Shown: one piece after another, positions 5,984 through 48,497 of the stretch
How positions within the stretch are numbered: position 1 is the stretch's first letter
How the letters are laid out: each line of letters starts with the position of its first letter
NCBI RefSeq assembly: GCF_900110865.1
Contig: NZ_FOFD01000002.1
Location: forward strand, 368,835-432,834
Direction: 5' to 3'
Origin: Natrinema salaciae
Lineage (GTDB): Archaea > Halobacteriota > Halobacteria > Halobacteriales > Natrialbaceae
Length of the DNA stretch: 64,000 nucleotides
Program-made: the position numbers and the translations under genes
Notes under the pieces: generated by a model
The model's database searches: none
What the model was told of the DNA's origin: nothing
What the model saw: the letters and a program-made list of their open reading frames with translations, nothing else

Positions 5984-7849
5984 ATGAGTAATCCCGACCA
6001 GGAGCGGACGGACCACGATCCGCCCAACCAGGAACAACAGCGGGCTCGCGAGCCGCCCGAACAGGAACAGGTTCGAGAGGCGGTCGAACGGTCCAGAAGC
6101 GGTGCTCCGGCCGTGGGGGCGGTCGTCCGGGATCGCTTCTCCGCCGACGAGGTCTTTCAGCGGATCGTCGCCGCGGCGGACGAGGAGGTCACCTCGGGGA
6201 GCCGCGAGCTTTTCTTCAGCGGTATCGCCGCCGGATTCGCGATCTCGATCACGGTCCTGCTGTACGCCTCGCTGTACGGCTCGACCGACGGCCACCCGAT
6301 ACTGAGCGCCTTGCTCTATCCGCTCGGGTTCGTCTACATCATCATCGGCGGCTACCAGCTCTACACCGAGAACACGCTGCCGCCGGTCGCGCTCACCTTA
6401 GAGCGGATCGCCAGCCTTCCCGCCCTCCTGCGCCACTGGTCGATCGTGCTGGCCGGGAACTTCACCGGCGGCCTGATCGGCGCAGCGGTGCTCGCCTGGG
6501 GCGGCGTGTTTTCCCCCGAGGCGGCCGAGGCGGCGATGCATCTCGGGACCCACGGCCCGGAGACGCCGTGGTGGGACCTGTTCTTCAAGGCCGCCTTCGC
6601 CGGCCTGATCGTCGCCGGCGTCGTCTGGGTGGAGTACTCCGCCCGCGAGACGATCGCCAGGATCGTGATCGTCTACATGGCCTTCCTCGCGATCCCGATC
6701 GGGAATCTGTTCCACGTCGTCACCTCCTTCACCGAGATGGCCTACGTCGTCTTCCTCGGCCAACTCGATCCGCTCGTCGGCCTGACCCAGTTCGTCCTGC
6801 CGGTCCTACTCGGGAACACCATCGGAGGTATCCTCCTGGTGACCGTCGTCAACTACTTCCAGACGAGCGAGCGACGACTCGAGTCGGCCCGGTTCGAGGG
6901 GAACGAGCGCCAGCTCTCGATGCGGGAGTGGCTGTTCGGGGGCTACGCCGGCCGCTCGTACGTCCCCCTGATCGATACCGCCGAGTCGACCGCGGTCGAC
7001 AACGGCGAGACCTACCGCGTGCTCGTCCCGATCTCGAACCCCCGAACCGAGTCGCGGATCGTGGATCTGGCCTGTACGCTGGCGAACAACCACGAGAACG
7101 CGGTGGTTCACGCCGTCCACATCGTCCAGGTACCCGAGCGCCGATCGATGCGGTACGGTTCCGGGCGCAACCAGCGGATCGTCTCCGAATCCGAGAAGCA
7201 GATGAAGGGGATTCGAGAGACGGTCTCCTCGTACGATATCGGCTGTGAGACCTCGACGGTCGTCTCTCACCGGTCGTTCGAAGACGTCTTCGACACCGCA
7301 GAGCGCGAACGAGCGGACCTCGTCGTCCTCGGCTGGGGAGACGATCTCCCGTGGGGAGCGGGCCGTGCCGAGGGGCGGATCAGCAAGCTGACCAGTAACC
7401 TCCCCAGTGACTTCCTCGTCCTCAAGGACAGAGAACTGGACACGTCACGCATCCTCCTCCCGACCGCGGGCGGTCCGGACTCGGACCTCAGCGCCGAAGT
7501 CGCCCGAACGCTCGAGCAGGCCGACGGGTCGTCCATCTCCCTCTTGCACGTCGTCGACGACGCCGAGGAACGCGCGGACGGCCGGGCGTTCCTCGCGAAC
7601 TGGGCCGCCGAACACGGCCTCGAGAACGCGGACCTCACGATCGACGACTCGGGCGACGTCGAGGGGGCGATCTGTCGCGAAGCGGCCGATAACTCGCTCG
7701 TGATCATCGGCGCGACGGAGTCGGGACTGCTCTCGCGGCTCGTGAGCGATTCCCTCCACATGGACGTCGTCAACGAGGTCGACAGTTCGGTCCTGCTCGC
7801 CGAGCGACCCAGCAAACGAAACGTCGTCCGGCGGCTGTTGGGCCGCTAG
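5984..7849 (+). CDS. FNT-family anion channel fused to two UspA domains
   Basis: 621 residues. After a charged, Gln-rich N-terminus (1-50), residues about 55-292 form a six-helix formate/nitrite transporter (FNT) domain, with the conserved loops ENTLPPVALTL (129-139) and AGNFTGG (157-163) and the pore-histidine segment NLFHVVTSF (His244). Residues about 343-475 and 488-605 are two UspA-type nucleotide-binding domains. FNT channels pass formate, nitrite, hydrosulfide or similar weak-acid anions; cytoplasmic UspA tails could gate transport in response to ATP or a stress ligand (inference). The gene stands alone. Confidence 0.88.
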   Translation: MSNPDQERTDHDPPNQEQQRAREPPEQEQVREAVERSRSGAPAVGAVVRDRFSADEVFQRIVAAADEEVTSGSRELFFSGIAAGFAISITVLLYASLYGSTDGHPILSALLYPLGFVYIIIGGYQLYTENTLPPVALTLERIASLPALLRHWSIVLAGNFTGGLIGAAVLAWGGVFSPEAAEAAMHLGTHGPETPWWDLFFKAAFAGLIVAGVVWVEYSARETIARIVIVYMAFLAIPIGNLFHVVTSFTEMAYVVFLGQLDPLVGLTQFVLPVLLGNTIGGILLVTVVNYFQTSERRLESARFEGNERQLSMREWLFGGYAGRSYVPLIDTAESTAVDNGETYRVLVPISNPRTESRIVDLACTLANNHENAVVHAVHIVQVPERRSMRYGSGRNQRIVSESEKQMKGIRETVSSYDIGCETSTVVSHRSFEDVFDTAERERADLVVLGWGDDLPWGAGRAEGRISKLTSNLPSDFLVLKDRELDTSRILLPTAGGPDSDLSAEVARTLEQADGSSISLLHVVDDAEERADGRAFLANWAAEHGLENADLTIDDSGDVEGAICREAADNSLVIIGATESGLLSRLVSDSLHMDVVNEVDSSVLLAERPSKRNVVRRLLGR

Positions 7850-7941
7850 ACGGCTCTCTTCGCTCGACGTCCGCGATCGTCTCCGTCGGTGGTCGTCACG
7901 CGCGAAAAAAGCCGATACCCGATCGAAACCGGCCGTCCGGA

Positions 7942-30398: not shown

Positions 30399-30482
30399 GG
30401 TGGGGTGGCAGAGCGGCCTAACGCGCCTGCCTTGAGAGCAGGTGGCTGTCAAGCCTCATGGGTTCAAATCCCATCCCCACCG
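30399..30482 (+). tRNA. tRNA-Ser (anticodon UGA)
   Basis: The acceptor stem ggtggggg-type pairing (30399-30405 with 30475-30481) is perfect, with discriminator G at 30482. The anticodon stem cctgc/gcagg encloses loop cttgaga (anticodon TGA). The long variable arm (ggct...aagcc) marks a class II tRNA, and the T arm is atggg-ttcaaat-cccat. No CCA is encoded and no intron is seen. Confidence 0.95.
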
Positions 30483-30680: not shown

Positions 30681-31433
30681 TCAGCGCCGATTGTGGCCGC
30701 GGTACGCGAGTAGCGCCGCACCGACGAGCACCGCGAGGACGGCGATCCCAGCGCCGAACCCGGGGATGCTCGTGCCGTCGGCCGCCGTCTCATCGGGTTC
30801 GAACGTCGCTTCGAACCCCTCGAATGCCGTCCCGCCGTTCCACGTCGCGGCGGTGCGCGTTCGGTCGGTCGGCTCCGGCGTCACCGTCGTCAGTTCGTAC
30901 CCGTCGGGACCGGTAATACGGACGGTGCGGTCCGTGGCGAATTCGCTATCGAAGGGCTCTCGGACCACGAGCCGATCACCCGTCCGGGCAGCGAGCCCGT
31001 CCCACGTCACCGAGAGCGTGACGATCCCGGTGTCCTCTCGCTCGGTGAACGAAATGGCAGCCCCGCGGACCTGCATCGCCCGTCCGGTGTCGTTCGCAGC
31101 CCCGCTCGCGATAGCCCGCATCCGCGCGGCGAATTGCTCCGTCCGTCGCTCGTGTGCCGTCGCGTTCGCGCGGAGGGACTGGAAGGCCTGCCGTTCGCTG
31201 TCGGTGGTGAGATCGAACGTGACCGTGAGCGCCACCTGCGCCGAGCCGTTTACGTCGAGTTCCACAACGAACGCCGGTTCGGCTGGCACCGGGTCCGACA
31301 TCTGACTCGTTGCTGCTCTCGCTTCCGTCGCTGCAGCGACCGGTGCGGTCACGAGTAGTGCGATCGCGACGAGTACGTACGCGACGCGAACTCGCCGTCG
31401 TCTCGGTCGTCTCTGGATCTCATCGTCAGTCAT
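30681..31433 (-). CDS. Secreted surface protein with PGF-CTERM-type anchor (DUF7345-like domain)
   Basis: 250 residues. N-terminal signal (VAYVLVAIALLVTAPVAAA), a beta-rich extracytoplasmic domain (about 45-210) with several N-x-T/S sequons, then SIPGFGAGIAVLAVLVGAALLAY followed by RGHNRR: the PGF motif, hydrophobic helix and basic tail recognised by archaeosortase. The extracytoplasmic domain is clearly homologous to that of the gene at 33196 (shared VD.NGSA, RMR...AN.TGR.M, TW....RT patterns). Confidence 0.82.
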   Translation of the reverse strand: MTDDEIQRRPRRRRVRVAYVLVAIALLVTAPVAAATEARAATSQMSDPVPAEPAFVVELDVNGSAQVALTVTFDLTTDSERQAFQSLRANATAHERRTEQFAARMRAIASGAANDTGRAMQVRGAAISFTEREDTGIVTLSVTWDGLAARTGDRLVVREPFDSEFATDRTVRITGPDGYELTTVTPEPTDRTRTAATWNGGTAFEGFEATFEPDETAADGTSIPGFGAGIAVLAVLVGAALLAYRGHNRR

Positions 31434-31515
31434 ACTTGTGAATCATGTGTCTCGAGTTCTGTCGGCGAATCATCGTCGTTCGCATCGGAGCATCGTACCC
31501 GGCCAAAACACCGGC

Positions 31516-33000
31516 TCAGGTGTCTTCGACCTCGGATTCGGTCTCCGTCTCGTCGTCATCGTCCGGCTCTTCGTCTCCGTCGTCGACGGATTCGGTCTCC
31601 GTCTCGTCGTCATCGTCCGGCTCTTCGTCTCCATCGTCGACGGGTTCAGTCTCGTCCTCGCTCTCGTGTGCGTCCTCGGTCAGCGTGAGCGAGCCGTCCC
31701 GGACCTCGTATTCGAGTTCGGCCTCGAACTCGCCTTTGCGGACGTCCAGCTCGAGTTCGTCGGTCTCGCGCACGTCGAAGATGAACGTCACCGTTCCGTC
31801 CGCGTTCGTCGTTCCGACCACTCGGTCGTTCGCGGAGACCGTCGCGTTGGCGACGGCCGATCCATCGTAGTTGACGACCGCCGTCGCGGTTTCTCCTTCG
31901 AGCGTCGTCTCGACGCTTAGATTCCGGATGGCGTCCGCATCGTCTCGCTTATCTTCACGTTCGTCGTCCTCTCGATCGTCTTCACGCTCGTCGTCCGCTT
32001 CGTCTTCACGTTCGTCCTCTCGATCGTCTTCACGTTCGTCGTCCGCTTCGTCTTCGGCCTCGATCTCCTCTTCGAGTTTGTACACCTCACCCGTCGAACC
32101 GTCGATCCGGACCTCGGCCTCGCCCGTCTGGCCGGCAGCGTTCCGGAGCGCGAACTCGAACTCGTAGGCACCCTCGTCCTCCTTCACGCTCGATTCGCTG
32201 TGCTCCCAAGTGCCGTTTTCGGGCGTCGAAAGCGCCGCCTGCGCCGTCTCGAGGGCAGCGGACTGGCTCACCGTGATGGACCGATCACCATCGCGCGTGC
32301 GTTCGACCTCGCGCGACCGTTCGCCGTCTTCGCTCGCTACTTCGATGGAGAGTCCGCCGGCGGTCTCGAGTTCGATTTCGCCCCGTGACTCACCGGTGAA
32401 CCGCTCGAGCAGCGCTGTGGTACCGCTTCCGCTGACGCTACTCAGGTCGTTCACTGCCTCGTCGAGTGCGGACTGATTGACGCCGGCCGCCTGGAGTTCG
32501 AGTGCGGAGACGTTCGCGGCCCGCCGTTGGAGCTGTTCGTTGCTGTCGGCTACGTTCGCCGCCCGGGCGTTCAAGGTCGCGAGCCGCTGGGCGTACTCGG
32601 ATCTGCTGATATCGCCCGCCTCGTACTCTTCGGTGGCTTCGTCGTACTCCTCACGGATGTCCTCGGCGCGCTCGCGCAGCGTTTCCGCGCGCTCGGCGAC
32701 GGCCTCGACCCGTTCCTCCTCGCTGTCACTCTCGATGGACACCTCGAACGCGGTGTTCTCGAAGTCCGTCCGTACCTCGTCGCTCGACACGTCGATGACT
32801 GTCGAAAGCTGTTGGCCGACCGTGACGTTCACGTTCGAGCCCGAGCCGGATTGCGTCCCGTTCTCCTGTACCACCATTCCAGCTGCCTGCCCCGAACCCA
32901 CGCTCGAGGCCGTCCCGGTGTCGACCGCGACCGCCGGCGGGACGGTCATCCCGACGACGAGCACTGCGAACAGTAGGGAACCGATCGTGATTCGTTTCAT
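31516..33000 (-). CDS. Secreted coiled-coil/PepSY protein with acidic tail
   Basis: 494 residues. Signal peptide (about 1-25), a helical coiled-coil domain (about 75-180: ERVEAVAERAETLRERAEDI), a PepSY-like domain (about 245-320: SAALETAQAALSTPENGTWE, EVRIDGSTGEVYKLEEEIE), a highly charged Asp/Glu/Arg/Lys repeat (about 322-365), an Ig-like strand region, and an acidic C-terminal repeat with two copies of SVDDGDEEPDDDDETETES. Expected on the cell surface. ATG at 32998-33000 preferred to GTG at 33012. It sits between the two homologous surface-protein genes. Confidence 0.8.
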   Translation of the reverse strand: MKRITIGSLLFAVLVVGMTVPPAVAVDTGTASSVGSGQAAGMVVQENGTQSGSGSNVNVTVGQQLSTVIDVSSDEVRTDFENTAFEVSIESDSEEERVEAVAERAETLRERAEDIREEYDEATEEYEAGDISRSEYAQRLATLNARAANVADSNEQLQRRAANVSALELQAAGVNQSALDEAVNDLSSVSGSGTTALLERFTGESRGEIELETAGGLSIEVASEDGERSREVERTRDGDRSITVSQSAALETAQAALSTPENGTWEHSESSVKEDEGAYEFEFALRNAAGQTGEAEVRIDGSTGEVYKLEEEIEAEDEADDEREDDREDEREDEADDEREDDREDDEREDKRDDADAIRNLSVETTLEGETATAVVNYDGSAVANATVSANDRVVGTTNADGTVTFIFDVRETDELELDVRKGEFEAELEYEVRDGSLTLTEDAHESEDETEPVDDGDEEPDDDDETETESVDDGDEEPDDDDETETESEVEDT

Positions 33001-33160
33001 CGTAGGAGACACTCACGACAGATCCTATGATAAATCAGAGAGACGTTCGGAGTGGTTTGCAGCGGTTTGCACCGTCATTTGTAGCCGTTTGCACTCGTTT
33101 TCACGTTCCCGTCGTTGCCCACACCGTGGAATTCCGATACGCGGGTTGGTGTGGCCGTCG

Positions 33161-33170
33161 AACTTATACG
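33161..33170 (+). promoter_or_regulatory. TATA-like box of the membrane-anchored regulator
   Basis: aacttatacg is centred about 30 bases before the ATG at 33196. A purine-rich ggggggtgag directly before the ATG could also act as a ribosome-binding site. Confidence 0.5.
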
Positions 33171-33195
33171 AATCTCGTTTAAACAGGGGGGTGAG

Positions 33196-34293
33196 ATGGA
33201 TCGTTTGCTGGAGTCTCGTCCGAGAAGACACGTCGTAGTCGGCGTCGTTATTCTCTTGCTCGGAGGGATGATCCTGCCCGTGGGAACCGCCGGCGGTGTG
33301 ACGCGCCAGACCGAGCCCGAAGCGGACAACACCGTCACCCGGATCGACGTGGACGCTAACGGGTCTGCACGGTGGACGATTCAGGTTCGAACGCGGCTCG
33401 ACACCGACGAGCGCGTCGAAGAGTACGAGGCGTTCCAGACACGTTTCCGGAACGATACGTCGCGGTATCTCGACCCCTTCCGGGACCGAATGCGCGGGGT
33501 CGTCTCTAACGGGGCGAACGTGACCGGCCGAGAGATGCGCGCGACGAATTTCACCGCCTCCACCAGCGTTCAGGAGGTCCCGCGCCGCTGGGGGGTAGTC
33601 ACCTACCGATTTACCTGGACGAACTTCGGAACCCGAACGGACGGGGAAATCGCCGTTGGCGACGTCTTTCAGGACGGATTTTTCATCTCGTCCGACGATA
33701 CGCTCACGATCGAAGCACCCGCGGAGTACGAGATCAGTCGAATAGAGCCCGCGCCGGACAGTCGGAACGAGCGAGCGGTAACGTGGGTCGGCAGAGCGGA
33801 CTTTTCGAACGAACACCCGCAGGTTGTCTTCGCCCCAGCGGGGGCAACCGCCGGGACACAGTCGTCTTCCTCCTGGATACCGTTCCTCTTCGGCCAGAAG
33901 TGGCCCGGGTTCGTGGTTGGCGTGGTCGTTTCGTTCGGGATCGTCACCATCGCGTACACGGTGTACCGACGGCGGGATGATTCCGCCGAGACCCACCAGC
34001 CGCCGACGGCTGTCCCCGAGGAACCGTCGAATGCGACCACAGGTCCGGCGACGGGCCCGATACCCCAATCCGACAACTCGCAGGCGGAGGAGCAAGTCAT
34101 GACGGACGAGGAACGCGTTCTCGCCCTCCTCGAGGACAACGGCGGTCGAATGCGTCAGGCGACGATCGACGACGAGTTCGACTGGTCCGCCTCGAAAACG
34201 TCGCGTGTCATCGGGAAGCTGGTCGACGACGGATCGGTCGAGAAACGCAGGATCGGTCGGGAAAACCTGATCGATCTCGTGGACGACGAGTGA
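33196..34293 (+). CDS. Membrane-tethered winged-helix protein with surface sensor domain
   Basis: 365 residues. Signal or helix 1 (about 12-34); an extracytoplasmic domain (about 40-225) homologous to that of the gene at 30681; a second membrane helix (about 237-258: WPGFVVGVVVSFGIVTIAYTV); a Pro/Thr linker; and a cytoplasmic winged helix (about 300-365: DEERVLALLEDNGGRMRQATIDDEFDWSASKTSRVIGKL). The layout is that of a one-component sensor reading the cell surface and acting on DNA. The target is unknown. Confidence 0.84.
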   Translation: MDRLLESRPRRHVVVGVVILLLGGMILPVGTAGGVTRQTEPEADNTVTRIDVDANGSARWTIQVRTRLDTDERVEEYEAFQTRFRNDTSRYLDPFRDRMRGVVSNGANVTGREMRATNFTASTSVQEVPRRWGVVTYRFTWTNFGTRTDGEIAVGDVFQDGFFISSDDTLTIEAPAEYEISRIEPAPDSRNERAVTWVGRADFSNEHPQVVFAPAGATAGTQSSSSWIPFLFGQKWPGFVVGVVVSFGIVTIAYTVYRRRDDSAETHQPPTAVPEEPSNATTGPATGPIPQSDNSQAEEQVMTDEERVLALLEDNGGRMRQATIDDEFDWSASKTSRVIGKLVDDGSVEKRRIGRENLIDLVDDE

Positions 34294-34691: not shown

Positions 34692-35735
34692 TTAGCGGTA
34701 GGAGAGCTCGAGGTCGCGCGCTCGATCGAGCAACTCGGCGTCGTAGTAGTCTTCGGTCTGTGCGGGTCGGACGTCGTCGATCGCGCGGACCTGCTGGACG
34801 GTGTTCCGGAAGTTCTTGAAGGTGGCCTCGTCGACCATCTGGCCGTCGATGGTGACCGCGCCGGTCCCCTCGCGCTTGGCCTCGTTGAAGCGCTCGATCT
34901 TGTGGACGTCGCGCTCGAGTTCGGCGGGCGTGGGCATGTGGACGGTGTTGGCCTGGACGGTCTGCTTGGGGTACAGCGACCAGGAGCCGTCCAGTCCGAG
35001 GCGGGCCTCGTGCTCGACCTGGTCGGCGTACTCGTCGGCGTTGTAGTAGGTCAGCCCGGCGCGTTCCTTGAACAGGTCGTCGAAGGGGCCGCCGATCGAG
35101 AGCAGGCCGCCGGCGCTGGCTTCGTTCGAGAGGGCCTCGAGGAGGCCGTCCCAGCGGGGCATGCCGTCACCGAGGTCGCGGCCGCCGAGTTCGGCGGCGT
35201 AGTCGACGGGGCCGAAGACCAGCGCGGTGAGTCGGGAGTCCTCGCCGAATTTGGCGATTTCGCGCAGGTCGGAGCGGGCACGGCCGGTTTCGATGATGAT
35301 CGAGAGGCCGATGGAGCCGTCGTCGTAGCCGTGTTCGGCCTCGGCCTCGGCGACGACTTCGGCGGCGCGTTTCACGTCCTCGAGGCGGCCGACCTTGGGG
35401 ACGACGACGCCGTCGATCTCGCCACCGATCTCGCCGACGAGGCGGTCGATCTGGTCGCGGCCCTTCTCGCAGTACTCCTCGTCCTCGTAGCTCCACTCGA
35501 CGCGGGGCCAGATCTCGCCGGGGAAGTCGTACTGTGGGACCTTCTCGATGGTGTTCTCGAGCCCTTCGGCTTTCATGTCCGGTGCCGTCCCGTCTTCCAT
35601 GTCGGGGACGAGCCAGTCGGGGGCCTGGAATCCCTCCGCCTCGAGGGCGGAGGTGAGATACTTCGCCGAGTCGTCTTTCGGAACGGCGGCCGGTGCGGTC
35701 TGGAACGTACGGCAGAGTCGGATGTCGTCAGTCAT
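34692..35735 (-). CDS. CitE-like malyl-CoA / beta-methylmalyl-CoA lyase
   Basis: 347 residues of the HpcH/HpaI-CitE TIM-barrel family. Metal-binding segments SIIIETGRA and VFGPVDYAAELG are present, as is VPDMEDG near the N-terminus. In the methylaspartate cycle this enzyme cleaves beta-methylmalyl-CoA to glyoxylate and propionyl-CoA. It is last in the operon, 48 bases after the mesaconyl-CoA hydratase gene. Assignment rests on family plus context. Confidence 0.88.
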   Translation of the reverse strand: MTDDIRLCRTFQTAPAAVPKDDSAKYLTSALEAEGFQAPDWLVPDMEDGTAPDMKAEGLENTIEKVPQYDFPGEIWPRVEWSYEDEEYCEKGRDQIDRLVGEIGGEIDGVVVPKVGRLEDVKRAAEVVAEAEAEHGYDDGSIGLSIIIETGRARSDLREIAKFGEDSRLTALVFGPVDYAAELGGRDLGDGMPRWDGLLEALSNEASAGGLLSIGGPFDDLFKERAGLTYYNADEYADQVEHEARLGLDGSWSLYPKQTVQANTVHMPTPAELERDVHKIERFNEAKREGTGAVTIDGQMVDEATFKNFRNTVQQVRAIDDVRPAQTEDYYDAELLDRARDLELSYR

Positions 35736-35783
35736 GTGTCTGAGTTCGGAATTGTCTGCTGTCGAGTATGATGTTCGATCGTG

Positions 35784-36854
35784 TTAGTTAGAACGCTTTC
35801 GAATCTCGGCGGTTCGCGTCCCCGAGTAGACGGGTTCGTCGTCCTGGTTGAACGCGATGTGTTCGAACGTGACCGTCCCCGCGTCGTCGCTCGAGGCGTC
35901 GTCGTCGGCCTCGAGCACGCGCGTGAACGCGTAGACGGTGTCGCCAACGGCGACGAACGTGTGGAACGACTCGTCGTCGAAGCCGACCTCGCGCCACGTT
36001 TCCTCGTCGGAGCGCGCGTGTCCCAGCGCCGTGGAGCGAGTGACGTCGCCGTAGGTGACGATGTCGCCCGACGGCGAGTCGGCCATCACGTCGACGTTGT
36101 GGTGCTGTTTGGCCGTGTTGAGCGTCGACAGCGGCAGGGAGGCGACGGTGACGTCGTCCTGCGTGCGGCCGCGCTCGTGTCGATAGGCGACGGCGGCGTC
36201 GCGGTCCGCGGCCGCCTCGAGCGCCTCGACGAAGTCCTCGTAGTAGCCGCCCTCCGGTGTGACGAACTCCTCGGGGAGGTCGGGGTCGGGACCGTCGTCA
36301 CCGTCCCCTTCGGTAGCCGCCGTGCCGCCGTCCGTGGCCACTGGCTCCCGGCGCGGAATCATGTTCGTCCGCTCGTAGGAACAGAGCACGTCGCCGGTCT
36401 CCGCGTCCGTCCCGCGGGTCCGCCAGGAGACGATGCCGTACTCCGGTCGGGAGCTCGAGGTGGCCGTATTCACGACCTCGCTCTCGACGTGGAGTTCGGT
36501 CCCCGCGTAGACCGGCGACTCGGGAAACCGGACGTCGGTGCGGCCGAGGAAGTAGCCCCCCTTCTCGCTCAGGTCCTCGACGGTGATGCCGAGGGTGGCC
36601 GCGGTCAGATAATCCGGATGGATCGGCGGCTCGTCGAAGCCGCGTTCCGCCGCGGCGTCCGTGCGCCAGTAGGCCGGATCGTGGTTGAGCGTCTGGCTCA
36701 TCCAGGACTCGTTGCCGAACTGGGTCAGCGTGAGCCCGGGGTCGTGTTCGATCACGTCCCCCTCCTCGAAGTCCTCGAAGCAGTTGCCCTTCTCCTTGGT
36801 CTCGACCTGGTCGAGCGCCTGTGCAAACGTGTCGGGATCGGTCCAATCAGTCAT
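35784..36854 (-). CDS. mch: Mesaconyl-CoA hydratase (double MaoC fold)
   Basis: 356 residues. Two MaoC-like hot-dog domains: the first with FEEGDVIEHDPG and LTQFGNESWMSQTLNHDPAYW, the second with VTYGDVTRSTALGHARSDEETW. An acidic Gly/Asp linker lies at about 170-190. It hydrates mesaconyl-CoA to beta-methylmalyl-CoA. It overlaps mal by eight bases. Confidence 0.9.
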   Translation of the reverse strand: MTDWTDPDTFAQALDQVETKEKGNCFEDFEEGDVIEHDPGLTLTQFGNESWMSQTLNHDPAYWRTDAAAERGFDEPPIHPDYLTAATLGITVEDLSEKGGYFLGRTDVRFPESPVYAGTELHVESEVVNTATSSSRPEYGIVSWRTRGTDAETGDVLCSYERTNMIPRREPVATDGGTAATEGDGDDGPDPDLPEEFVTPEGGYYEDFVEALEAAADRDAAVAYRHERGRTQDDVTVASLPLSTLNTAKQHHNVDVMADSPSGDIVTYGDVTRSTALGHARSDEETWREVGFDDESFHTFVAVGDTVYAFTRVLEADDDASSDDAGTVTFEHIAFNQDDEPVYSGTRTAEIRKRSN

Positions 36855-38124
36855 CTGCGGTCACCTCGTCGGTTTCGGTTCGCTGCTGGTCCCGCTCGCG
36901 GCGGGCGATCGTTCGTCGCATCTCGTTTTCGACGATCATGTACCCCTCGTCGAAGCCCATGCCGGGCTTTGCGAGCACCTGCGCGGCGTCCGTCGCGAGC
37001 GCGACGTGAGCGCAGGCACGCGCGGAGGTTTCCGTTTCGTTGCAGGTCCCGCCCAGATAGGCGCGGGTCTCGGTCCCCTCACAGTAGCGGACCGCCTGCC
37101 CGCTGCGGTGGATACCGCCTAGATCGGGCGTCTTGACCTGCACGAGGTCCGCTGCGCCGGCGTCGACGAACGCCTGCACGTCCTCGAACGTGTTACACCA
37201 CTCGTCGGCCACGATGTCGACGCCGACGTTGGCGTCGGCGAGCCCTTCGCGGAGCTCGACCATCGCCGCGATCTGGTCGGCGCGGTCGCCGACGTCCATC
37301 GGTCCCTCGATCTGGATCGGGAACGGGGCCGCGGCTTCCTCGAGCGCGGCGAAGTAGTCGACGACCTCGTCGCGATCGTAGGGCGCGCCGAAAATCTCCC
37401 CGATCATCCCGTAGACGTCGATGTGGAACCGCGGCTCGTAGTTCTCGGGGCCGAGTTCCTGTGAGCGCTCGACGAGCCACTCCACGTACTCGAGGAGGGT
37501 CTCGCCGTTCTCGCCGATTTTCTCGACGCTGTTGATCAGGGCGTGGGGCAGGACGGGAACGCCCTTGACGAACATCTTCTCGGTGTTGGTGTAGCGGTCG
37601 TCGCCGGACTGGCCGAAGACGGGCACCGGCTCCGTCGCGGGCTCGGTGCCCAAGGCGTCGGCCACGATATCCGTGCGCGTCGTGTTCTCGGCTTCCGCGG
37701 CGGCGGCGAGCAGCGCCTGCGAGACGCCGTACCGGATCGCCGTGTGGAGCCGGTCGCCCTCGACCTGCATCTCCTCGAGCAGCTCCGCGTTGGCGAGGAA
37801 CTCGGTCGCGTCCCGGCCCTCGAGTTCGTCGGCGACGGGGCCCTCGATGACGGGGGCGTACTCCTCGGCCTGAAAGAGCGGGTCGCGCCCGCCGGCACCG
37901 GAGTACTGGACCGCGGCGCAGTCGCCACGCAATACGGTTCCGTCGGCGAGTTCGACGTCGACGATGATCGTTTCGCCGGCCTGACGGATCTCGTCGAAGC
38001 CGTCGGTGACGGGTTCGCCCTCGTAGGTGAACCCGTCCTGCGTTGCTCCCTGCTTGATCGCGCGCTGGTCGTCGAAGAAGAACCCGGAGTAGCCGGGCGT
38101 GGCGTGTAGTCCTGTAATCTCCAT
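36847..38124 (-). CDS. mal: Methylaspartate ammonia-lyase
   Basis: 425 residues, enolase superfamily. The N-terminal MAL domain (MEITGLHATPGYSGFFFDDQ) and barrel motifs FHIDVYG (catalytic His and metal Asp), IQIEGPMD (metal Glu), VADEWCN (metal Asp) and LVQVKTPDLGG (catalytic Lys) are intact. It eliminates ammonia from 3-methylaspartate to give mesaconate. It directly abuts the glutamate mutase large-subunit gene. Confidence 0.95.
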   Translation of the reverse strand: MEITGLHATPGYSGFFFDDQRAIKQGATQDGFTYEGEPVTDGFDEIRQAGETIIVDVELADGTVLRGDCAAVQYSGAGGRDPLFQAEEYAPVIEGPVADELEGRDATEFLANAELLEEMQVEGDRLHTAIRYGVSQALLAAAAEAENTTRTDIVADALGTEPATEPVPVFGQSGDDRYTNTEKMFVKGVPVLPHALINSVEKIGENGETLLEYVEWLVERSQELGPENYEPRFHIDVYGMIGEIFGAPYDRDEVVDYFAALEEAAAPFPIQIEGPMDVGDRADQIAAMVELREGLADANVGVDIVADEWCNTFEDVQAFVDAGAADLVQVKTPDLGGIHRSGQAVRYCEGTETRAYLGGTCNETETSARACAHVALATDAAQVLAKPGMGFDEGYMIVENEMRRTIARRERDQQRTETDEVTADD

Positions 38125-39558
38125 TTAGACGTCACCCTGCGGTCGGCCGATGAGTTTGCCGTCGCTGATCGCGTCGACGTCGTCCGCGACCATCCGGAAC
38201 GACTGGTCGCGGCCTTCGGTCGTGGCCCGTTGCGAGAGCCGGGCCTTGTGAATCTCCTTGATATCGTCGTCCATCGCGAGGTCGGCCCACTCGAAGATGC
38301 GGACGCGACCGTCGTCGTCCCGCGCGGGGAGGACGGCACCCCGTGCGCTGTCGCTGGGTGCGAACGGCACGTCGAGCGCACCGGAGTCGAAGGCCTTGAG
38401 CGTCCCCTGAACGACGTCGCCGTCGCCGTGTTCGAAGATGGTGTCCATCAGACACCGGGTCTCGCGCTCGATGAGGTCCTGTTCTTCCTCGATGCCGTCG
38501 ATGTCTATCTGCTGCTCGATGGCCATGTCGATGACCTGGCGCGTGGTGCGCAGGCCGGCCGAGTTGGCCTCCATGGTCGGCACCCCCTGGAACTCCTGGG
38601 GCGACTTGGTGATGACCTTGTCCGGTTGCGCGATAGCCGCGGTCATGCCGCCGAGGCTGATGACGCCGTTGGCGCGGGCCTCGTCCGGCGGGAAGCCGCC
38701 CATCCACTCGTGGAAGACGGTCGTGACGACGACCTCGTCCGGCAGGTACTCGTTGCCCAGTTTCTTGAGCGCGTTCAGGGCGGCCACGTCCTGCACGATG
38801 TTGCCGACCTGCCCGTAGCCGAGCGTGATCGAGCGCACGCCTTGCGTCGCCGCTAACTTCCCTTCGACCAGCATGATCGCGATCGCGATCGACGGCGGAA
38901 CGAGCGTCCCCGTCAGCGGGCCGAACGGCTCGCGGTTGATCCGCACGCCGCGTTCGGTGTAAGCGCCCGCCAGCCGGTCGACGAACTGCCACTTCTCGAT
39001 CGTCTCCTCGAGTCCGTGGCGTTTCGTGTACGGAATGTTGTAGGAGATCGGGCCGCCCTCGAAGCTCTGGAAGCCGCCGGCGAAGGTGATCGCCGCGAGC
39101 AGTCGGGCGTCCGGCGTCCCGTGGCGAACCTCGATCGGCGCGTCGACCGCGTCGATCAGTTCGCGGCAGCCGTCGACGCCGTGGTTGACGGCCGGGAAGC
39201 CGTTGAGGGTGTCGTCGCCCGTCTCGAGGGCCTTGTCCAGCCCCTGCTGGGCCTTCTCGTACTCGTTGTCGCGCGTGTACGAGTCGATCGTCGTCGGCAG
39301 GAGATCCGCCTTCCCCTCCTCGAGGAGGTACTGCAGGAGCTCGATCTGGTCGTCGAGCCGGGGGACGCCGGCCCGAGGCTGCAAGAGGGGTTTGTCCGCC
39401 GACTCGAGGACGTCCGCGAATCGCTTGTGATCCGGCAGCGATTCGTGGTACTCGATTGCGTCCTCGAAGTCGATGTCCGCGCCCGTGGGCCAGTTAGATC
39501 GGATCGCTTCGTCAATACGCCGTAGCTCGTCGGATGGAATGCGTTCGTCTCGTATCAT
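38125..39558 (-). CDS. mamB: Glutamate mutase epsilon subunit
   Basis: 477 residues: the catalytic TIM-barrel partner of the B12-binding subunit. Family strings include LLQPRAGVPRLDDQIELLQYL, VNHGVDGCRELIDAVDAPIEVRHGTPD (split here across the substrate site), FEGGPISYNIPY and FHEWMGGFP. It converts glutamate to 3-methylaspartate with adenosylcobalamin. Eight bases separate it from the small-subunit stop. Symbol follows haloarchaeal usage (glmE elsewhere). Confidence 0.94.
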   Translation of the reverse strand: MIRDERIPSDELRRIDEAIRSNWPTGADIDFEDAIEYHESLPDHKRFADVLESADKPLLQPRAGVPRLDDQIELLQYLLEEGKADLLPTTIDSYTRDNEYEKAQQGLDKALETGDDTLNGFPAVNHGVDGCRELIDAVDAPIEVRHGTPDARLLAAITFAGGFQSFEGGPISYNIPYTKRHGLEETIEKWQFVDRLAGAYTERGVRINREPFGPLTGTLVPPSIAIAIMLVEGKLAATQGVRSITLGYGQVGNIVQDVAALNALKKLGNEYLPDEVVVTTVFHEWMGGFPPDEARANGVISLGGMTAAIAQPDKVITKSPQEFQGVPTMEANSAGLRTTRQVIDMAIEQQIDIDGIEEEQDLIERETRCLMDTIFEHGDGDVVQGTLKAFDSGALDVPFAPSDSARGAVLPARDDDGRVRIFEWADLAMDDDIKEIHKARLSQRATTEGRDQSFRMVADDVDAISDGKLIGRPQGDV

Positions 39559-48423: not shown

Positions 48424-48497
48424 GCCAGGGGAGCATGGGCGGTTCATGCACTCGACTTGTAATCGAGACTTCGTGGGTTCAAATCCCACCCCTGGCT
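48424..48497 (+). tRNA. tRNA-Thr (anticodon UGU)
   Basis: Acceptor gccaggg (48424-48430) pairs with ccctggc (48490-48496); discriminator T at 48497. Anticodon stem ctcga/tcgag with loop cttgtaa (anticodon TGT). T arm gtggg-ttcaaat-cccac. No CCA encoded, no intron. Its 3' end is duplicated just downstream, marking an integration target. Confidence 0.95.

Follow-up and report, generated by a model that had tools for sequence, protein, structure and literature searches.

Transmembrane transcription regulators (TTRs), single proteins that both bind DNA and carry a membrane helix, are described as widespread in bacteria and archaea; in one census the single-pass type is the commonest, and an archaeal genome has about four TTRs (Demey et al. 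2023, PMC10269533). ArnR and ArnR1 of Sulfolobus acidocaldarius are archaeal membrane-bound helix-turn-helix (HTH) regulators of surface structures, described in the passages available as oligomeric and as having two boxes at the flaB promoter (PMC6396743), while EarA of Methanococcus maripaludis is a winged-helix activator whose short site is present four times at the promoter (passages of PMC6396743 and PMC13286277). Here we examine a locus that can be compared with these, found in a 64,000-nucleotide stretch of the genome of Natrinema salaciae (contig NZ_FOFD01000002.1, positions 368,835 to 432,834; hereafter the window). Positions 30681-34293 of the window consist of three open reading frames (ORFs): R, on the plus strand, encodes a predicted membrane-tethered winged-helix protein, and divergent from it on the minus strand lie P, which encodes a secreted protein, and S, which encodes a second protein with the sensor domain of R, this time on a predicted surface anchor. 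A preliminary description had read these genes as a three-gene surface module, and ORFs, domain profiles and predicted models all confirm this. The main point that it missed is a phased array of short repeats at the promoter of P.

Like the TTRs, R has a predicted winged helix and a transmembrane (TM) helix in one protein; it differs from them in that its sensor is N-terminal and outside the cell, its winged helix is C-terminal and a cis-element is proposed for it, and the TTR paper, in the passages available, contains no word beginning with 'halo' (PMC10269533). ArnR and ArnR1, unlike R, have an N-terminal HTH and two C-terminal TM domains, their boxes are inverted repeats (TCGAC-N5-GTCGA), and the passages available mention no sortase-anchored partner (PMC6396743). 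The EarA site, TACATA in the available passages, is likewise unlike the GTTTGCA-like units of the array described here (PMC6396743, PMC13286277). By gene order only, R, P and S can also be likened to co-component systems (ToxR, TcpP, PsaE and VtrA with their associated proteins), from which they differ in that the putative partner S is a paralogue of R's own sensor on an archaeosortase-type anchor, and in that it is the partner genes which presumably form the regulated operon. Literature searches for these families, by family name, found no relevant paper, and none turned up on 10-bp direct repeats in haloarchaea. R may belong to COG2512, which older databases list as predicted membrane-associated regulators and for which a text search by name also found no relevant paper.

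In the window, the DNA between R and P contains five array units, namely GTTTGCA at 33055, GTTTGCA at 33065, ATTTGTA at 33077, GTTTGCA at 33087 and GTTTTCA at 33097, and a weaker unit may begin at about 33043. Across 31 segments (the window and 30 named loci), pairs of TTGCA spaced 10 bp apart occurred 14 times in 16 kb of R-P intergenic DNA and 3 times in 475 kb of flanking DNA; four pairs were spaced by 20 bp and none by 1-9 or 11-19 bp, and there were no pairs on the strand opposite R in the R-P intergenic segments. The strongest matches in the flanks are themselves arrays at P promoters that fell outside the fixed segments. We then described the array by a 10-bp weight matrix, three units long, with a threshold of more than 13 bits. 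Two samples of loci that overlap in genomes were available: one centred on S, made up of 60 loci with 5.5 kb flanks and four earlier ones (L073-L076), 64 in all, with some genomes contributing two, and one of 34 named loci reached through R. Together they hold 93 P loci, 66 of which have an array at the start of P. A divergent R goes with an array in every case except L163; the other loci among the 27 without one lack R or are codirectional or convergent. There were 48 distinct array 30-mers, 23 of them from outside the training set, and 11 matches lay away from the start of P in the 1.20 Mb scanned. The array is still found at P in L182, L184, L186, L194 and L204, five loci in which R has moved away or changed orientation. 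Within the genome of N. salaciae itself, a three-unit pattern with at most one mismatch occurs only at the R-P locus and at one other site, C2:482069, and a generic three-unit pattern gave 30 matches in 25 of 194 genomes, five of them at R-P sites known by coordinate.

The array also has a nearly fixed helical register relative to the core promoter of P. A TATA-like box is clear in 38 distinct promoters, and in these the array-to-box distance modulo 10 was 6 in 23 cases, 7 in six, 8 in seven and 4 and 5 in one each, so that 36 of the 38 have a distance of 6, 7 or 8 (these, like the helix counts given below, are plain locus counts, uncorrected for kinship), and the units therefore stay in phase with the P core promoter. 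They do not overlap the TATA-like box but stand upstream of it, mostly at 16, 26, 36 or 56-58 bp. This placement and phasing make an upstream activating sequence the most likely role for the array. We accordingly lean towards R activating P-S, with repression rather unlikely and a mixture of both, depending on state, less likely still. One form of repression deserves separate mention, in which R would hold P-S down through the array until binding of S or P relieves it, which would amount to on-demand surface repair. Divergent repressor-target pairs are indeed common, and MarR-like winged helices, such as that of R, are often found in repressors, but an array placed upstream of the box in near-constant register is what one would expect of an activator touching basal factors, and we regard this form of repression as improbable.

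A tree of 87 DUF7345 domains, the sensor domain that R and S have in common, splits R into divergent (D), codirectional (C) and class-I groups, and the presence of the array follows a single residue of the R recognition helix. At this position (Arg337 in the window) R proteins have mainly Arg, Lys or Gln. Among R genes with at least 700 bp of upstream DNA, an array was present for 40 of the 49 with Arg and six of the eight with Lys (46 of 57 combined), and for none of the 56 with Gln, nor for the single ones with Met and Glu; several of the Arg misses do have an array by the weight matrix, which escapes this count because the ORF is taken too long at its start or R is displaced. The Arg type corresponds to the D group and the Lys type to a subset of the C group; the C group contains both Lys proteins, with arrays, and Gln proteins, without. 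One may also consider that a different regulator binds the array, or that the array is an element of promoter architecture, and that R is a mere neighbour sharing a physiological theme. Binding of R to the array is a prediction, and some Arg-type R genes lie kilobases away from it (L182). Yet one would then hardly expect the array to accompany Arg or Lys and never Gln, a contrast that holds even inside the codirectional clade, nor the three-unit pattern to be restricted in its own genome to this locus and one other site. Such a bystander role for R seems unlikely.

Far from being rarely found together, the three genes are linked in haloarchaea far above chance. In 62 of the 63 usable S loci (L158, in which the S frame is broken, was left out) P immediately precedes S in the same orientation, usually with a 4-bp overlap or a gap of a few bases, and R is within 5.5 kb of S in 51 of 64 loci, of which 34 are divergent, 15 upstream and codirectional and two convergent; these neighbour counts cover all but the approximately 22 lowest-ranked S rows of the profile search. 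When the loci are instead approached through R, 32 of the 34 contain R, 31 have P with R and 20 have S with both, so R-P forms the core, to which S is an optional addition with a strictly kept place. All of 59 Halobacteria genomes carry both DUF7096, the family of P, and DUF7345, and in at least 57 of them the best DUF7096 gene is divergent from a DUF7345 gene and less than 3 kb away. The exceptions are G029, with no DUF7345 within 3 kb among the matches listed, and G021, where DUF7096 and an S point the same way. Another 38 DUF7096 matches are mostly weaker; at least 22 of them are within 3 kb of a DUF7345 match (two divergent, 14 with DUF7345 first and six with DUF7096 first) and 16 are not, in each case among the matches listed. 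The genome of N. salaciae (G000; 4.86 Mb) has six DUF7345 and three DUF7096 matches by profile search, every one of the latter adjoining a DUF7345 gene; two DUF7345-HTH genes of this genome, L071 (G000:C1:807906-808292) and L072 (G000:C3:508785-509171), have no P beside them. Outside Halobacteria, DUF7345 occurs in 14 of the 124 other genomes of the phylum sample, and DUF7096 is nearly confined to Halobacteria, with two genomes outside giving weak matches below the cut-off in the same sample. In one of these two (G417, C4:11-1925) the weak DUF7096 match is followed about 1 kb downstream, on the same strand, by DUF7345, which is the P-S order.

The two homologous extracytoplasmic domains that had been noticed on either side of P are both DUF7345, above cut-off in R as in S. 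As for the PGF-CTERM anchor proposed for S, the C-terminus does carry the motif (IPGFGAG), then a hydrophobic stretch and a basic end, with the TIGR04126 score falling just under the cut-off (Table 1); archaeosortase-type anchoring is predicted from this tail. PGF is found within the last 50 residues of 45 of 63 S relatives, and 23 of 32 S proteins match TIGR04126 at E <= 0.01. In 13 S proteins PGF is replaced by [LA]PTPL ahead of the hydrophobic tail (L074, L120, L121, L124, L125, L128, L129, L142, L143, L159, L161, L163 and L169), which may be a different sorting signal or simply a membrane tail. A profile built from five S proteins and run against 391 Halobacteria genomes ranked short, HTH-less DUF7345 proteins at the top, with about 87 rows in about 81 genomes at 150 bits or more (counted from rows); the 60 S loci with 5.5 kb flanks were drawn from these. 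In the DUF7345 tree, 34 of the 35 S rows, together with two S-like stand-alone proteins, form one supported clade apart from R, the exception being L076_S, which sits elsewhere on a long branch. Since the S rows form one clade apart from R, S was not copied repeatedly from the neighbouring R and arose essentially once. The separate and old S clade, the resemblance of the S tail to a surface anchor and the Ig-like domains of P would all suit another explanation, namely that P and S, under the control of R, have an ordinary structural or adhesive function at the surface, the likeness of the S and R ectodomains reflecting common descent and no signalling. It accounts less readily for S being kept specifically downstream of P, and with a DUF7345 regulator, in the proportions given above, and we consider it somewhat unlikely.

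Taking together what the computations gave, i.e. domains, co-occurrence, gene order, array, register and the covariation of array and helix, we infer that R is a membrane-tethered regulator of P-S acting through the array, with feedback as the likeliest role of S, and would put the probability of this reading at roughly 0.58. The DUF7345 domain of R would be outside the cell, a single helix would span the membrane and the MarR-like winged helix would be in the cytoplasm. Several such winged helices would bind side by side on the 10-bp-phased array upstream of the P-S TATA-like box, where they would contact basal factors and activate the divergent operon, whose output would be secreted P and archaeosortase-type-anchored S. 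S may then meet the ligand of R, or pair with the R ectodomain, and raise or lower R activity as the amount of surface protein grows; feedback is its likeliest role because S carries the sensor domain of R on an archaeosortase-type anchor. The tethered DNA-binding regulator of the preliminary description thus finds indirect support for this locus in the conserved phased array at the P promoter, and its outline of a regulatory surface set was right.

Several observations weigh against this reading. The window array has one 12-bp step, and its plain TTGCA score of 16 does not exceed the shuffle maximum of 17 (the control is a Markov resample rather than an exact dinucleotide shuffle, and plain TTGCA scores of individual loci are modest); the evidence is comparative rather than drawn from a single locus. 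Position alone cannot separate an activator site from a repressor site, and helix type is confounded with clade in the R tree. The weight-matrix scan found no array in six class-I loci (L069, L079, L080, L081, L086 and L087), nor in codirectional sets outside the family of N. salaciae (f1), and the array is therefore not part of every R-P pair. Finally, S is absent from 11 of the 31 named R-P loci, and feedback by S is thus not essential. This last point also speaks against the earlier proposal of an envelope-stress set built on physical contact among anchored S, P and tethered R, and nothing found points to stress as the signal. It is true that R, P and S are all membrane or surface proteins by sequence, that S and R have DUF7345 in common and that R probably controls the P-S promoter, all of which such a set would share. 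We nevertheless find it distinctly unlikely in that form, envelope stress being one signal among several possible ones. A more elaborate version of the tethered-regulator reading is offered tentatively, at somewhat less than even odds: the locus would be a cassette in which a row of R on the phased array, in register, switches on P and S, the latter a sortase-anchored duplicate of R's sensor domain, and through sensor-sensor or shared-ligand contact gauges what it has sent to the surface, existing in at least two old paralogous versions in which helix and array have changed together, with a third, array-less version that is near-universal in Halobacteria.

The Gln-type R genes include the class-I ones, and a 10-bp array was not found in the intergenic DNA of 30 class-I loci, a weak negative in that several segments look coding. 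In several families the class-I R-P pair adjoins pilin-like and A-type ATP synthase genes (BLAST synteny, gene names by reading; L069 at G000:C4:514000-532000, L079, L081, L086 and L087). In the codirectional sets of f1, a CGTTTTC-like phased array precedes R by about 400-570 bp and stands immediately ahead of a second secreted gene, Q, and five of the 11 array matches away from P are in codirectional loci, upstream of R and of Q. The Q product is a small secreted protein of about 80-130 residues with a motif like P-x-P-V-P-[DE]-F-V, and most Q genes have the array ahead of them. Q is present in seven S loci (L144, L146, L165, L173, L174, L177 and L178), in L145 and in the set on C3 of the N. 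salaciae genome (L070, the same place as L003, approximately 7456-7903); a Pfam scan of three Q members gave no family above cut-off. Four genomes of one genus (g17; L242-L245) contain a phased array of GTTTCG(G/A)ACC-like units in a common neighbourhood that includes no R, P or S, and this array may be another target.

Returning to the proteins themselves (Table 1), the start of R was taken as the ATG, the listed ORF beginning upstream at 33115 with TTG. R matches DUF7345 (PF24036) with 118.8 bits against a curated cut-off of 27.5, and DUF7343 (PF24034) with E 1.8e-26 and 92.2 bits against 27.6. Its winged helix is MarR-like by structure comparison (Z 11.2 over 63 residues, root-mean-square deviation (rmsd) 1.7), and the MarR_2 profile matches it at E 1.1e-4, below cut-off. 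What had been described as a membrane helix plus a cytoplasmic winged helix is, accordingly, a DUF7345 ectodomain, one helix and a MarR-like DUF7343 domain. For the ectodomain, Foldseek returned the FMO protein and LppM as large-rmsd matches only; both were rejected and the fold of DUF7345 was left unnamed. P matches DUF7096 (PF23379) with E 5.5e-13 and 49.7 bits (cut-off 27), a family matched at E <= 0.01 by all 28 aligned P proteins. Of its earlier label as a PepSY/coiled-coil protein, the PepSY part is plausible, not proven, from the model and from weak profile matches (PF14620 at E 0.039, below cut-off; PF03413 in one of 28 relatives). Foldseek found nothing similar to the P model at E 0.001 or better, and confidence of the model is low outside residues 63-161, 246-315 and 361-442. 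The C-terminal part of P is an Ig-like domain and then a tail rich in Asp and Glu; Ig-like and carboxypeptidase-regulatory-like profiles match many of the 28 relatives, and no membrane anchor of its own is visible in the P sequence.

Table 1. Features of the R-P-S locus of N. salaciae, in window positions (aa, amino acids; pLDDT, predicted local distance difference test)
Feature	Position	Strand	Basis
S, 250 aa, DUF7345 and PGF-CTERM-like anchor	30681..31433	-	DUF7345 E 3.8e-23, 82.5 bits, cut-off 27.5
S PGF-CTERM-like tail, aa 224-250	30684..30764	-	TIGR04126 E 1e-4, 21.9 bits, cut-off 24.5
P, 494 aa from ATG 33000; DUF7096 hairpin, PepSY-like, Ig-like, acidic tail	31516..33000	-	profiles, model
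P Ig-like domain, aa 361-442	31675..31920	-	model; profiles of relatives
P PepSY-like region, aa 246-315	32056..32265	-	confident helix and four strands in model; weak profile matches
P helical hairpin in DUF7096, aa 63-161	32518..32814	-	predicted model
TATA-like box of P-S operon, TGATTTATC	33029..33037	-	inferred
Array of GTTTGCA-like (CGTTTGCAG-like) units, putative R binding array	33055..33103	+	repeat-pair counts, weight matrix
Possible R TATA-like box	33164..33168	+	inferred
R, 365 aa from ATG 33196; DUF7345, TM helix, DUF7343 winged helix	33196..34293	+	Pfam profiles, predicted model
R ectodomain DUF7345, aa 45-214	33328..33837	+	Pfam E 2.3e-34; model pLDDT mostly >90
R membrane helix, aa 240-262	33913..33981	+	hydrophobic helix in model, followed by YRRRDD
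R winged helix DUF7343, aa 304-361; Arg337 in the recognition-helix motif WSASKTSRV	34105..34278	+	profile, model

Elsewhere in the window, a tRNA-Ser (TGA) gene is located at 30399-30482, about 200 bp past the end of S. On the other side of the module, ORFs at 34692-39558 on the minus strand were read as methylaspartate-cycle enzymes (a lyase, a hydratase, methylaspartate ammonia-lyase and glutamate mutase E), names assigned by reading the sequence only. Between 49000 and 60500, directly after a tRNA-Thr gene (48424-48497), the G+C content falls from about 0.65 to 0.52-0.58, and this region resembles an integrated element.

The routes by which information from outside the archaeal cell reaches a promoter are poorly known, and membrane-held regulators are nearly uncharacterised there. 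For a near-universal haloarchaeal R-P pair made of DUF domains there is now a concrete target: short repeats arrayed at a named promoter, one recognition-helix residue that tracks the array, and a partner that appears to carry the sensor a second time on a surface anchor. With paired loci present in many genera, one can ask whether winged helices held at the membrane act on DNA as an ordered row.

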